From an uncultured cyanobacterium (GTDB lineage: Bacteria > Cyanobacteriota > Cyanobacteriia > PCC-6307 > Cyanobiaceae): a stretch of 56,382 nucleotides of DNA. Numbering within the stretch: position 1 is the first letter of the stretch; each line of letters opens with the position of its first letter. Positions 31,145-35,723 of this stretch are shown here, one piece after another. The stretch lies in the NCBI GenBank assembly GCA_903856805.1, contig CAIOCZ010000123.1:1-56382 (forward strand), in the 5' to 3' direction. The position numbers and the translations under genes are program-made. Below the pieces are notes generated by a model. It worked only from the letters and a program-made list of their open reading frames with translations. It had not been told where the DNA came from and did no database searches.

Positions 31145-31244
31145 AGGGCGGAGATCCGTCCCCCCAGATACGGCTGGCGGTATCACTACTAACCATTTGT
31201 GTTCCGTAGTCGTTGTTACTGTTGAAGGACGTTGGCCGGGCTTC

Positions 31245-31348
31245 GGCGGCGTTCAAGGCGATCCGGTTTCTCCCGGTGCCTTGGCGTCGACGCGGCGTCG
31301 GTGGAAGTAGGGGCAAACCTGCGGGTCCATGCCCTGAAGCAACGCGCC
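31245..31348 (+). ncRNA. Candidate glutamine riboswitch (downstream-peptide/glnA type)
   Basis: I read a three-stem junction. P1 pairs GCGTT (31249-31253) with AACGC (31341-31345), extended by GGC/GCC with a one-base bulge. P2 pairs AAGGC (31255-31259) with GCCTT (31278-31282), with an inner CCGG/CCGG. P3 pairs GGGCA (31311-31315) with TGCCC (31330-31334), with inner ACC/GGT. The segment entering P3 is GGAAGTAGG (31303-31311) and the 3' side of P1 contains GAAGCAACGC. This order (CGTTCA, GGAAGTAGG, GAAG-AACGC) is the known consensus of cyanobacterial glutamine riboswitches; one consensus position differs (GAAGC for GAAGG). The 37-codon gene with its SD at 31383 follows. The expression platform may be translational, since CCT/AGG pairing touches the SD. 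Confidence 0.8.
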
Positions 31349-31394
31349 ATCCACCCTGTGGGCCCCGCCCCAGGTTTCCTTCGGAGGCACGTCC

Positions 31395-31508
31395 ATGTCC
31401 ATCACCACCGCCAAGCAACTGGTTCGTCAGGCTGAGGAGGCGCGTCGCGCTGCCCGGCAACAGGCCTTCAGTGTGCAGTCCCTGCGCAAGCAGTGTCTGA
31501 TCGACTGA
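31395..31508 (+). CDS. 37-aa micropeptide downstream of glutamine riboswitch
   Basis: Short ORF: MSITTAKQLVRQAEEARR at the start, then ARQQAFSVQSLRKQ and CLID at the end. GGAGG at 31383-31387 sits 7 bases ahead of the ATG, one of the best Shine-Dalgarno sites in the window. The gene is bracketed by a candidate glutamine riboswitch and an intrinsic terminator, so it is a stand-alone transcript. The peptide is basic, Ala/Gln/Arg-rich and predicted helical, reminiscent of small cyanobacterial inhibitors of nitrogen enzymes such as glutamine synthetase inactivating factors (IF7/IF17). I see no clear identity with them, so a role in nitrogen control is inferred from context. One Cys near the C-terminus could be redox-active. 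Confidence 0.75.
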   Translation: MSITTAKQLVRQAEEARRAARQQAFSVQSLRKQCLID

Positions 31509-31543
31509 TTGACCCAACCGATTGCGTTGTAGGCACCATTCCG

Positions 31544-31569
31544 GGCCCCGCTTTGGCGGGGCCTTTTTT
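31544..31569 (+). terminator. Intrinsic terminator of the micropeptide transcript
   Basis: Perfect 8-bp stem GGCCCCGC (31544-31551) / GCGGGGCC (31556-31563), 4-base loop TTTG, then six T residues. It closes the riboswitch and micropeptide unit 35 bases after its stop and insulates fbaA. Confidence 0.93.
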
Positions 31570-31706: not shown

Positions 31707-32780
31707 ATGGCGCTCGTCCCGCTCCGGCTGTTGCTTGATCACGCCGCTGAGAACGGCTATGGCATCCCTGCGTTCAATGTGAACAACCTGGAGCAGGTCC
31801 AGTCGATCATGGAGGCGGCTCAAGAGACCGACAGCCCGGTCATTCTCCAGGCCTCCCGCGGTGCCCGTCAGTATGCCGGCGAGAACTTTCTGCGGCACCT
31901 GATTCTGGCGGCGGTGGAAACCTATCCGGATATCCCGGTGGTCATGCACCAGGACCATGGCAACAGCCCTGCCACCTGCTTCGGTGCGGCCGCCAATGGT
32001 TTCACTTCGGTGATGATGGACGGCTCCCTGATGGACGACGCCAAGACCCCGGCCACCTACGACTACAACGTGGCAGTCACCAAGGAAGTGGTGGACGTGG
32101 CCCATGCCATTGGTGTGAGCGTGGAAGGAGAACTGGGTTGTCTGGGTTCCCTGGAGACCGGCATGGGTGAGGCCGAAGACGGCCATGGTTTTGAGGGCAA
32201 ATTGGATCACAGCCAACTGCTCACCGATCCCGCCGAGGCCGCGGATTTCGTCGCCAAAACCAAGGTCGATGCCCTGGCGATCGCCATCGGCACCAGCCAT
32301 GGTGCCTACAAGTTCACCCGCAAGCCAACCGGTGAAGTGCTGGCCATCAGCCGGATTGCTGAAATCCACAAGGCCATCCCCAACACTCACCTGGTGATGC
32401 ACGGCTCCTCCTCCGTTCCCCAGGAGTGGCTGGACATGATCAACAAGTATGGCGGTGCCATTCCTGAGACCTACGGTGTGCCCGTAGAGGAAATTCAGGA
32501 GGGCATTCGCAACGGCGTTCGCAAGGTGAACATCGACACCGACAATCGCCTGGCCTTCACCGCTGCCGTTCGGGAAGCCGCCGCCAAGGATCCCGCCAAT
32601 TTCGATCCCCGTCACTTCAACAAGCCCGCCCGGGCCTACATGAAGAAGGTGTGCCTGGATCGTTACCAGCAGTTCTGGTGTGCCGGCAATGCCAGCAAGA
32701 TCAAGCAGCGCGACATCAACTTCTATGCCGGTCTGTATGCCAAGGGGCAACTTGATGCCAAGACCGCCGTCGCCGCCTGA
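31707..32780 (+). CDS. fbaA: Class II fructose-1,6-bisphosphate aldolase
   Basis: Zn2+-dependent aldolase of glycolysis and Calvin cycle, also able to make sedoheptulose-1,7-bisphosphate. 357 aa from ATG 31707, with GAGG about 8 bases upstream. Motifs: [26 protein letters not shown] with the zinc His and catalytic Asp, [22 protein letters not shown] (zinc His), VMHGSSSVP (zinc His) and [10 protein letters not shown]. The type is the long cyanobacterial CbbA-like enzyme. It has its own terminator and lies just after the glutamine-responsive unit. Confidence 0.96.
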
Positions 32781-32846: not shown

Positions 32847-35723
32847 TCAGCGTGGGATGCCACTGGAGGCCGGTGGTGGGGTGGCGGCGGCATTGTCAGT
32901 GTTGCCACTGATCAGCCTGGCCAGGGCATCGTTGAGACTGCGTTCCATCACGAAGCGGCTGCCATCGGTCACCACCACCCGAACCAGGGTTGGCAGGTCA
33001 TTGTTCTTGCTTTGAAGGTAGATCGGCTCCACATAGAGCAGGCCCTTGCCCACGGGCAGCACCAGGAGGTTGCCATGAATCAACCGGGATCCCACCCGAT
33101 TCCAGAGGCCGAATTGATAGCTGATCGCCGGATCCTGTTCGATTAGGGCCGACACCTGCTGGGGCCCCAGTAACAGGCGCTGCTGGGGAAATCGCACCAG
33201 CAGGAGTTTGCCGTAATGGGGGGGGTCGTTTCGGGCCGCAATCCAGCCGACCATGTTGGGCCGCCGCAGGGGCGAGAAGGGCAGCAGCAGGACGAATTCG
33301 GGTTGGGCCTGGCCTGGCAGCTGAACCGTGACGTGGTAGGGACGTACGGGGGTGTTGGTGGAGCCATAGATCTCCAAGGGCACCGACCACACATCGTCCC
33401 CGTTGTAAAAAGTGCGCACGTCCGTGACGTGATAACGCAGTAAACGTTCCGCTTGAATTGCAAATTGGCTCTGGGGCACCTGAATGTGCTTCAACAATTC
33501 CCGCGGCATGGCCGAAAGTGGTTGAAACAACTCAGGAAAGGCTCTCTGCCAGGTCCTTAGGATAGGATCCTCCGGATCGCTAATATACAACCAAACATTG
33601 CCGTTATAGGCGTCTACAACCGCCTTGACCGGATTGCGAAAATAACGAATTCCCGAGGGATTGGCCTCGGCATAGGGATAGCTGTGGCTCACGGTGAAGC
33701 CGTCCAGCATCCAGTATTGATGTTGGTCAGGTTGGAAGCCTTTGTTCGGCCCCAGGCGGGCGGTGACCAGGTAGGGCTGGCTCTCGAAGCGCAGGAACGG
33801 GGCCAGGGCCGTGAGGCGTTCATTCACCTGGCGCCGGATCTGCAACCGGGAGCTGGGGAGCAACGAACCGGTGAACAGCAGGCGGGGTTCGGGCAGGTAG
33901 GCGGCCGCCATCAACCGATCCAGGGGGCCATGGATCGTCAATCCCCCCGTTCCTTCGTAGTGGGAATAGACGTTCAGATCCCCTTCCGGATAGTCGAATT
34001 CGCGTACCTGGGTGGGGGCGATCACATAGGGAGCCTTGGCCGCGCCGAAGTAGAGCCGGGGGCGCCCCACCGGCAGCACCTTTTGTACCGCCGCATCACT
34101 GATGCCCAGCTGGGGAATCCCCTGCACCTTGCCGCTGCGGCCCAGGTCCTTGACGAAGTACAAAGGAAGTCCATCCGCACCGAAGGCGTTCACGGTGGAA
34201 ACGGTGAAGCCGTAGCCGTGGGTGAAGACGAGGTGGCGATTGAGCCAGGTTCGGGAATCCAGGGGCAGCGCGGCGGTGTCGATTTCGCGGGCCGCAATCA
34301 GCACCTGCTGCGAGCCGCTGGCGCTGGAGGGATGGAGCAGGGGGTAGCGGTCCACGGCCGCCGAGGGGAAGCGGTAGTAGAGACGCAATTGCTGCAGCTG
34401 CCGATTGGTGGCCAGCAGTGGCTTGCTGTCCCAGAGGCGAATGTTGGCCAGGGTGCCCTTGGCCGCGGCTAAATCGTTGGTGGTGAGTCTCTGGCGGGGT
34501 TCCAGGGTCACTTCTTTGATGGCCGTGAGGCCGAAGGCCCTGCGGGTGGCTGTGATTGACCGCCGCAGATAGGGGGTTTCCACGGCCAGCTCCCGGGGCT
34601 GCACCCAGAGCCGTTGCACCAGGGGGGCCACGATCCATTCGGCGATGGGCACGGCGCTCACCGTGGTGGCCAGGGGGATCAGGGCCATCCGGCGCAACCA
34701 GCCCCGAGGCAAGGGCACCAGTAGCCCGGCGGAGGTGAGCAGCAGCAGCAGCGACAGCAGCAGCCTCAGGGGTAGCCGCACATGCAGATCCACAAAGCCG
34801 GCGCCGGCGGCGACCCCACTGCCCTGCACCATCAGGTCAAAGGGGGCCAGGGCGTTGCTGAGGGCGGCCATCAGGGTCAGCACCGCCAGCTGGGGCTGCA
34901 AAACCTGTTGTTGCTGCGTGGTCAACCCTGGAAACCGCAGATCCGAAAGGCAGCTGCCTTCGCTGAAGGTGAGCCAAAGGCAGCCGGCCAGACCAACGGC
35001 CGCCTGGGCGAACACCACGCTCACCAGCAGGTGCAACGCGGGCAGTTGCAGCACCGTGAAGCTGAGATCGAAACCGGTGAGGGGATCGGTTTCATCGAAG
35101 GGCACCGCCAGCAGCCCTGGCAGCCAAAGGCTCCAGCCCCTGGCCAGGGCTGTGGCGGAGGCGGCGAGGGCCGCCGCCAGGGTGATGCGCAGGGTGGTGA
35201 ATGGGCGGAGCAGCAGGGGGAGAAGCAGGCCAGTCCCCAGTCCGAGAAAGAGCCAGAGGGGCAGATCGGTCAGGACGGGAATGCCAGTGATGGCCCGACC
35301 GCTGAAGGGATCGGCGATCAGATCCTGGGCCTGCACCAGCAGAAAGGTGAGACCCCCTGCCAGTAACAGCACCAATCCCACCAGGGCCGCCAGCATCGCC
35401 CGTTGGCCCATGGCCAGGATCGGAGCGGCTGGCAGGGAGCTGCGGGCGGCGTTCTGGCGGAGGCGCCAGCAGCGGTTGAGTTGGTGGAGCTGCAGGGGCA
35501 GCCCCAACCCGGTGACCAGGGCAAAGGCGAGTAGCTGCAGCCACCAGCGGCGCAGCACCACAGACTCAGCGCCGAACTGGGCATACCAGCGGCGCTCAAT
35601 GCCCAGACGGGACAACAGCACCAAGAGGCCCAGCAACACAGCAGTGCCAACCAGCAGGCGGAAGGCCAGCAGCAGGCCACTAGGCACGGGTCGCCGCCCG
35701 TGGTGCGGAGGGGAGACAATCAC
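32847..35723 (-). CDS. UPF0182 family large membrane protein
   Basis: 958 aa protein of the UPF0182/COG1615 family, widespread in cyanobacteria and actinobacteria, function unknown. The N-terminal third holds about seven hydrophobic segments (e.g. LLVGTAVLLGLLVLLSRL, LLALVGLVLLLAGGL). The C-terminal two thirds are a large soluble domain outside the membrane with conserved Trp/Tyr-rich blocks such as DGFTVSHSYPYAEANPSGIRYF and YNGNVWLYISDPEDPILRTW. The extracytoplasmic domain suggests an envelope role. Long gene, ATG start at 35723, alone on its strand. Confidence 0.92.
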   Translation of the reverse strand: MIVSPPHHGRRPVPSGLLLAFRLLVGTAVLLGLLVLLSRLGIERRWYAQFGAESVVLRRWWLQLLAFALVTGLGLPLQLHQLNRCWRLRQNAARSSLPAAPILAMGQRAMLAALVGLVLLLAGGLTFLLVQAQDLIADPFSGRAITGIPVLTDLPLWLFLGLGTGLLLPLLLRPFTTLRITLAAALAASATALARGWSLWLPGLLAVPFDETDPLTGFDLSFTVLQLPALHLLVSVVFAQAAVGLAGCLWLTFSEGSCLSDLRFPGLTTQQQQVLQPQLAVLTLMAALSNALAPFDLMVQGSGVAAGAGFVDLHVRLPLRLLLSLLLLLTSAGLLVPLPRGWLRRMALIPLATTVSAVPIAEWIVAPLVQRLWVQPRELAVETPYLRRSITATRRAFGLTAIKEVTLEPRQRLTTNDLAAAKGTLANIRLWDSKPLLATNRQLQQLRLYYRFPSAAVDRYPLLHPSSASGSQQVLIAAREIDTAALPLDSRTWLNRHLVFTHGYGFTVSTVNAFGADGLPLYFVKDLGRSGKVQGIPQLGISDAAVQKVLPVGRPRLYFGAAKAPYVIAPTQVREFDYPEGDLNVYSHYEGTGGLTIHGPLDRLMAAAYLPEPRLLFTGSLLPSSRLQIRRQVNERLTALAPFLRFESQPYLVTARLGPNKGFQPDQHQYWMLDGFTVSHSYPYAEANPSGIRYFRNPVKAVVDAYNGNVWLYISDPEDPILRTWQRAFPELFQPLSAMPRELLKHIQVPQSQFAIQAERLLRYHVTDVRTFYNGDDVWSVPLEIYGSTNTPVRPYHVTVQLPGQAQPEFVLLLPFSPLRRPNMVGWIAARNDPPHYGKLLLVRFPQQRLLLGPQQVSALIEQDPAISYQFGLWNRVGSRLIHGNLLVLPVGKGLLYVEPIYLQSKNNDLPTLVRVVVTDGSRFVMERSLNDALARLISGNTDNAAATPPPASSGIPR

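Follow-up and report, generated by a model that had tools for sequence, protein, structure and literature searches.

Comparative evidence for a glutamine-I riboswitch and an NtcA-type box ahead of a short conserved peptide gene in a picocyanobacterial genome

Comparison with related leaders identifies an element in the window (the whole 56,382-nucleotide stretch of cyanobacterial DNA analysed here, from a genome of ~3.0 Mb) as a glutamine-I (glnA) riboswitch of the RF01739 class. The best overall explanation of the locus, and in our view a very probable one, is that this riboswitch opens the mRNA of a short peptide whose production would be repressed by NtcA and switched on by glutamine. The features of the locus are collected in Table 1.

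Table 1. Features of the switch and peptide locus, in coordinates of the window
Feature	Position	Strand	Remarks
NtcA-type box GTA-N8-TAC, GTAGTCGTTGTTAC	31206-31219	+	exact pattern in 31/31 switch-plus-peptide leaders
-10-like hexamer TACTGT	31217-31222	+	overlaps the NtcA-type box; TACNNT in 31/31 leaders
Glutamine-I (glnA) riboswitch aptamer	31228-31348	+	by model R2; relatives pass RF01739
P1 5' strand CGTTG	31230-31234	+	pairs with 31340-31344, 5/5 pairs
P2 arm, expanded, ~66 nt	31236-31301	+	inner pairs CCG 31236-31238 with CGG 31299-31301
Core GGAAGTAGG	31303-31311	+	G31303 and G31304 probably correspond to glutamine-I positions 22 and 23
P3 hairpin	31310-31335	+	31310-31315 with 31330-31335; first pair G-U
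P1 3' strand CAACG	31340-31344	+	pairs with 31230-31234
Anti-Shine-Dalgarno GCC(A)TCC	31346-31352	+	directly 3' of P1; can pair with GGAGGC 31383-31388
Shine-Dalgarno GGAGGC	31383-31388	+	precedes the peptide ORF
Peptide ORF, 37 codons/37 aa, MSITTAKQLVRQAEEARRAARQQAFSVQSLRKQCLID	31395-31508	+	found in related genomes
Terminator-like hairpin, then T-run	31543-31564	+	behind the peptide ORF
Class II fructose-bisphosphate aldolase	31707-32780	+	PF01116, E 2.1e-92; conserved neighbour

Rfam, run at its own cut-offs, has no match anywhere in the 56-kb window. On a permissive scan the window copy scores 14.1 bits against RF01739 (E 4.3, span 31283-31348; gathering cut-off 35 bits) and ranks below several chance-looking sRNA matches; the RF01739 runner-up in the same genome, L002, is weak, at 13.1 bits. 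A covariance model, R2, was built from 30 related leaders with the window excluded and the structure set by hand; it was preceded by an automatic model, R1, whose P3 placement disagreed with the Rfam structure. R2 matches the window with 47.1 bits (E 2.4e-10; the next window match has E 0.57), and on the whole genome of origin it reports a shorter span, 31272-31348, with 40.1 bits. The RF01739 cut-off is passed by 9 of 14 related cyanobacterial loci (L005, L007, L010, L011, L012, L014, L017, L065 and L069) and failed by five (L004, L016, L019, L050 and L083). Because the model that left the window out finds the copy and these nine relatives pass RF01739, we assign the element to the glutamine-I class. 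The weak Rfam score of the window copy is probably due to the expansion of its P2 arm, and the case shows that a glutamine riboswitch, such as this one with its enlarged P2, can escape stock Rfam. Across the genus, 14 of 42 genomes have an RF01739 match over the cut-off; G007 and G016, though peptide-bearing, have no RF01739 match among those listed. One RF01739 match, L201 (24.9 bits), was dropped since by eye it resembles coding sequence.

A first-pass annotation of this DNA had proposed a glutamine riboswitch of the glnA or Downstream-peptide kind, beginning at 31245. Its glnA call holds, on the strength of R2 and the relatives, but the Downstream-peptide (glutamine-II) identity is rejected: RF01704 has no match in the genome, a silence that is weak alone because 14 control genomes are likewise silent, and a three-way junction is the wrong architecture for it. 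The 5' boundary moves to 31228 under R2. The covariance-model support that the annotation had anticipated comes from the relatives, through RF01739, and from the leave-window-out R2, the stock Rfam scan having failed on the window copy.

According to a passage of a paper on the glutamine-II structure (PMC6698751), the ligand of glutamine-I is contacted in its crystal structure by the C1:G59 pair, plus G22 and C58 in the triple above it. When this numbering is transferred onto the window, the presumed equivalents of the pocket are retained (C31230:G31344, G31231:C31343 and G31303), as is the long-range pair G31304:C31345, and glutamine would be the ligand of the window aptamer. The core pattern running from GGAAGTAGG to GAAGCAACGC (31303-31345) occurs once in the 56 kb and in none of 100 dinucleotide shuffles. 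The fold alone is unremarkable (z -1.34, with folds at least as stable in 19 of 200 shuffles); support for the aptamer is comparative. The strings quoted in the first-pass annotation are all present in the window and its P3 is the one in Table 1; its P2, a hairpin of AAGGC/GCCTT and CCGG/CCGG, exists but forms the outer part of the expanded P2 arm, away from the core. A competing P1 strand is possible (GGC-GCGTT, 31246-31254 with 31341-31348) and is absent from the 30 aligned relatives.

The alignment of relatives (A1) consists of 30 leaders picked either by the peptide or by the core pattern together with the box, its named-genome members coming from among the matches listed. The window was left out deliberately, and so were L004 (core GGAATTAGG), the DUF4278-linked L196 and L200, repeat entries of a contig under another name, and pattern matches that lack a box. 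All 18 leaders picked by the peptide have the same order of parts, namely GTA-N8-TAC, CGTTG, a variable hairpin, GGAAGTAGG, a second variable hairpin and GAAGCAACG; the core is exact in 16 of them, L004 and L016 deviating at the fifth base. The compensatory changes that the annotation had looked to in P1-P3 are found in P2, where four of six pairs change on both sides among the 30 relatives, but not elsewhere: P1 is invariant, and P3 has one G-U, some unpaired cells and no both-side changes. Over the whole structure 26 cells have both-side changes, against a shuffled mean of 13.0, and none of 500 shuffles reaches 26. Of five measures, three (cells paired, cells with both-side changes and covariation score) are higher for the real structure than in any of the 500 shuffles, and two are no better than in shuffles (pairs with both-side changes, 410/500; further pair types, 211/500). 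When the structure is slid by one column, the covariation score is 0.138 against 0.143 for the true register, while the cells paired fall from 89.3 to 51.6%.

The NtcA-type box sits 10-12 nt before P1 in all 31 leaders that have both switch and peptide, with a variable N8. Box counts for leaders picked by pattern depend on that selection, whereas the count for leaders picked through the peptide alone, 18 of 18, is independent of it. Consistent with a symmetric site, the commonest form read on the opposite strand gives exactly the L019 box and nearly the window box. Among control RF01739 leaders, GTA-N8-TAC occurs within 200 nt upstream in 15 of the 25 parsed (30 loci given). A full sigma-70 consensus was looked for upstream of the switch and none was found. 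Since the TAC of the box begins a TACNNT hexamer 10-12 nt before P1, the 5' end of the RNA probably falls at P1 or close to it, around 31229. In NtcA-activated promoters the box lies much further upstream; its overlap with the -10 region here suggests repression, and we infer that NtcA would bind at 31206-31219 and repress rather than activate. The gifA and gifB genes are repressed by NtcA, as stated in parts of two reviews (PMC7760959, PMC6316151).

Under nitrogen limitation, NtcA would occupy the box over the -10 region and block transcription; with nitrogen in excess it would leave the box and the leader RNA would be made. High glutamine would bind the three-way junction and stabilise P1, and the stabilised P1 would alter the pairing of the anti-Shine-Dalgarno (anti-SD) with the Shine-Dalgarno (SD) sequence, turning peptide translation on as reported for gifB. 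The link to nitrogen status that the first-pass annotation drew for the peptide is plausible.

An anti-SD:SD helix of 6 bp, or one pair longer, can form in 22 of the 31 leaders, the other nine having weaker or different ones: three precede the 39-aa form of the peptide and set CACC against GGTG, in four GAGG has 4-bp partners only, and L005 and L006 reach only 4 pairs. The control set comprised 15 of the parsed RF01739 leaders, all from families other than that of the window; in five of them the ORF behind the switch carries an IF module. The same layout recurs in 14 of the 15, where CGCCTC directly follows P1 and GAGGCG lies ahead of the start codon. Sections of two reviews (PMC6316151, PMC7760959) state that the gifB switch raises IF17 synthesis with glutamine, and one of them (PMC6316151) that glutamine activates the type 1 and type 2 switches studied; part of another paper (PMC6698751) describes glutamine-II as an ON switch. 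The window switch would, by analogy, work in the ON direction.

The alternative that survives best is the opposite direction, in which glutamine-bound aptamer leaves the anti-SD free to capture the SD and shuts the peptide off. Folding the 31 leaders with P1 forced lifts the mean anti-SD:SD pairing from 0.37 to 0.63, as an OFF switch would have it, with SD accessibility up in 5 leaders and down in 14. The same calculation raises accessibility in none of the 15 controls and lowers it in 2; as these leaders of the same layout, gifB-like ones included, also fail to expose the SD, the calculation is not discriminating: it cannot decide the direction and gives the ON reading no support. The Synechocystis gifB switch is reported as ON in the literature, and a glutamine OFF switch would work against NtcA repression, with which ON control would be coherent. 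We regard an OFF switch as unlikely.

Somewhat less probable still, and doubtful in our judgement, is that the window aptamer is decaying, its expanded P2 and G-U first P3 pair having spoiled binding and left a passive leader before a peptide controlled by NtcA. The Rfam scores are in keeping with this (14.1 bits in the window against at least 34.2 bits for 16 peptide-adjacent copies in the genus, among the matches listed), as is the spacing from CGTTG to the GGAAG of the core, which is 73 nt in the window and 20-49 nt in 30 relatives. In addition, four relatives without an aptamer (G165, G191, G239 and G275, in two genera) retain the box and the peptide, and the switch is therefore dispensable in some lineages; the riboswitch has apparently been lost in these two genera, with peptide and box as the constant part. 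Three of the four loci, L304 (G191), L306 (G239) and L307 (G275), still carry a stretch left over from the P1 5' strand, such as CGTTGA or CATTGACC. The leader of the fourth, L305 (G165), contains a long C-run. Against decay, the pocket-equivalent bases, P1, P3 and the anti-SD/SD pair of the window copy are all intact, L016 has the same G-U as its first P3 pair, and P2 length varies widely among the relatives.

The P1 register of the first-pass annotation, GCGTT 31249-31253 with AACGC 31341-31345 in a four-way arrangement, has very little left in its favour. CGTTC at 31250 would likewise give both pocket pairs, with G31344 and C31343, and the flanking GGC/GCC could lengthen the stem. However, CGTTC (31250-31254) lies inside the P2 arm and makes only 4 of 5 pairs, the inner one being a C-C mismatch, and the stem consumes C31345, which is required for the long-range pair. 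With the core imposed, the ViennaRNA energy is -46.7 kcal/mol in this register and -56.1 kcal/mol, or 9.4 kcal/mol better, in the homologous one (-60.2 kcal/mol unconstrained). The earlier register is also off the conserved distance from the box and is not the alignment chosen by R2, which was built with the window excluded and, together with the nearly fixed spacing from the NtcA-type box, puts the P1 5' strand at 31230-31234.

The very short ORF that the annotation had seen behind the switch is borne out by its distribution. An initial search found the peptide in 18 of 37 genus genomes, the genome of origin included, and in model searches the peptide-bearing genomes of the genus numbered 19 of 42, the very 19 that carry the switch. 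In the family the peptide is present in 47 of 400 genomes (7 of 59 genera) and the switch model matches in 50 of 400; the two occur together in 43 of the 47 peptide-bearing genomes, side by side by their listed coordinates. Seven family genomes have the switch without the peptide: in five (G108, G116, G122, G144 and G148) it precedes DUF4278-like ORFs, in G136 it is cut by a contig end, and in G248 the peptide starts at a contig end. One locus of the 39-aa form is titled Candidatus Synechococcus spongiarum SH4. The peptide is Arg-rich and conserved, and its amino-acid sequence is constrained: the median dN/dS among 27 sequences is 0.29 (351 pairs, not independent of one another), and dN is below dS for the window peptide against all 26 others. 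It is predicted to form a lone helix (residues 3-32; pTM 0.39). Two copies scanned against Pfam and NCBIfam had no family match, and a PDB search with the peptide was uninformative, returning mainly designed repeat or coiled-coil proteins and a few weak matches of the Rop-like and vinculin kinds.

The peptide gene is probably monocistronic. A single terminator-like hairpin is found in 651 nt (shuffle mean 0.5), a count that alone is not significant. A GFO/IDH/MocA oxidoreductase gene flanks the locus upstream, and the aldolase gene lies outside the switch-peptide unit. That the short ORF merely serves, through its translation as a leader peptide, to regulate the aldolase gene is scarcely credible, even though 26 of 31 loci have an aldolase motif behind it, given the terminator-like hairpin between the two genes, the constraint on the amino-acid sequence and three loci of the 39-aa form that, among the matches listed, have no aldolase motif in the 1.6-7.7 kb available. 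A large UPF0182 protein gene (32847-35723, - strand) adjoins the aldolase gene.

The role of the peptide may lie in nitrogen assimilation. The family seems to be without IF7/IF17: the cut-off of NF052599 (IF module) is reached in none of the 42 genus genomes and none of the 5 family genomes of a class sample, of which 37 of 59 reach it. That cut-off is strict, Synechococcus elongatus scoring below it, but at E 0.01 the counts are 44 of 59 for the class sample and still 0 of 5 for the family; the genus gives weak matches only, in 8 of 42 genomes, the best (E 0.0104) inside a 416-codon frame. Glutamine-synthetase-like genes that could be regulated are present in the genome of origin, where PF00120 matches four times. 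The peptide was considered as an IF7/IF17 homologue and rejected, there being no NCBIfam match, an hhalign probability of 0.24% and HMM scores within those of shuffles. Each of 24 peptides scored with the IF-module HMM falls within its own shuffles, the best being equalled by 49 of its 300; in the reverse search, which covered 37 sequences, no score exceeds 4.3 bits (E 0.0022, taking the search space as one).

In its control, the locus quite likely works like the gif system. What the peptide does is more speculative; our most likely guess, a tentative one, is that it damps ammonium assimilation, perhaps via glutamine synthetase (GS). It is conceivable, if on balance doubtful, that the 37-39-aa peptide represents an unrecognised class of GS inhibitor, or a brake on nitrogen assimilation, that replaces IF7/IF17 in picocyanobacteria under an ancestral gif-type module of NtcA box and glutamine-I switch. 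One review carries the heading 'The Regulation of GS in Marine Picocyanobacteria is Unclear' and, in the part concerned, describes full-length IF7/IF17 homologues as apparently missing in these organisms (PMC6316151). Cyanobium-type picocyanobacteria and the sponge-symbiont Synechococcus would gain from this locus a specific candidate for GS regulation, a tiny peptide behind an apparent gif-type module. Among the matches listed, titles since 2018 on the glutamine riboswitch include none on the peptide, and in the literature searched Cyanobium is mentioned alongside the glutamine riboswitch a single time, in a reference list; the primary papers of 2011 and 2018 lie outside this coverage and may have listed Cyanobium-type loci earlier. 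In a separate locus, L264 (G078:C58), a glutamine-I switch precedes a 49-aa ORF with an N-terminal IF7-like module only, a candidate for a natural minimal inactivating factor; very short products behind this switch are therefore not unprecedented.

Among known systems, glutamine-II (RF01704) shares with the window element a short ORF downstream, its occurrence in picocyanobacteria and glutamine as the ligand, reported in the literature for the one and presumed for the other, but it folds as a pseudoknot, as described in part of PMC6698751, whereas the window element is a three-way junction. A glutamine-II-looking leader, CGTTCACC to GGAACGGGGA with a GTAGCAACCGCTAC box, stands before a 58-aa DUF4278-like ORF at L301 (G096:C1:1400514-1400567). 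The DUF4278-linked switches of the family belong to the same class as the window element by R2 and RF01739 scores, and G020 has both kinds; they differ in their core, GGAAGTAGCC, and in their target, which in the G020 copy matches PF14105. In L294-L299, which have this core, a GTTC-N5-GAAC palindrome lies in the 60 nt upstream, which suggests a different transcription factor, and five of the six precede DUF4278-like ORFs. Viral contigs (L143, L145, L147, L166, L170 and similar) also carry the switch, with RF01739 over its cut-off in the five given; three of these five have tRNA genes, and some have an ATAAATA-like stretch upstream. Phage glutamine riboswitches are already in print, as parts of two papers show (PMC9004378, PMC9964418).

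With glutamine-I (RF01739) itself the window element shares the three-way junction, the P1 of CGTT./.AACG, the core GGAAGUAGG to GAAG, the pocket bases and an anti-SD directly 3' of P1. It differs in its expanded P2 arm, in a target ORF that is neither IF17 nor DUF4278, and in the inner P1 pair, which is G-C in the window and C-G in the Rfam consensus. This swapped pair is the glutamine-I counterpart of the position-5 pair of glutamine-II, which a passage of PMC6698751 places outside the highly conserved set, and G-C is found here also in the phage copies and in the DUF4278-linked L196 and L200. The gifB/IF17 leader precedes the gene of a protein to which the window peptide is not detectably related, but it resembles the window leader in its NtcA-type box, in an aptamer near the RNA start, in the anti-SD/SD layout and in having a small protein as its target.
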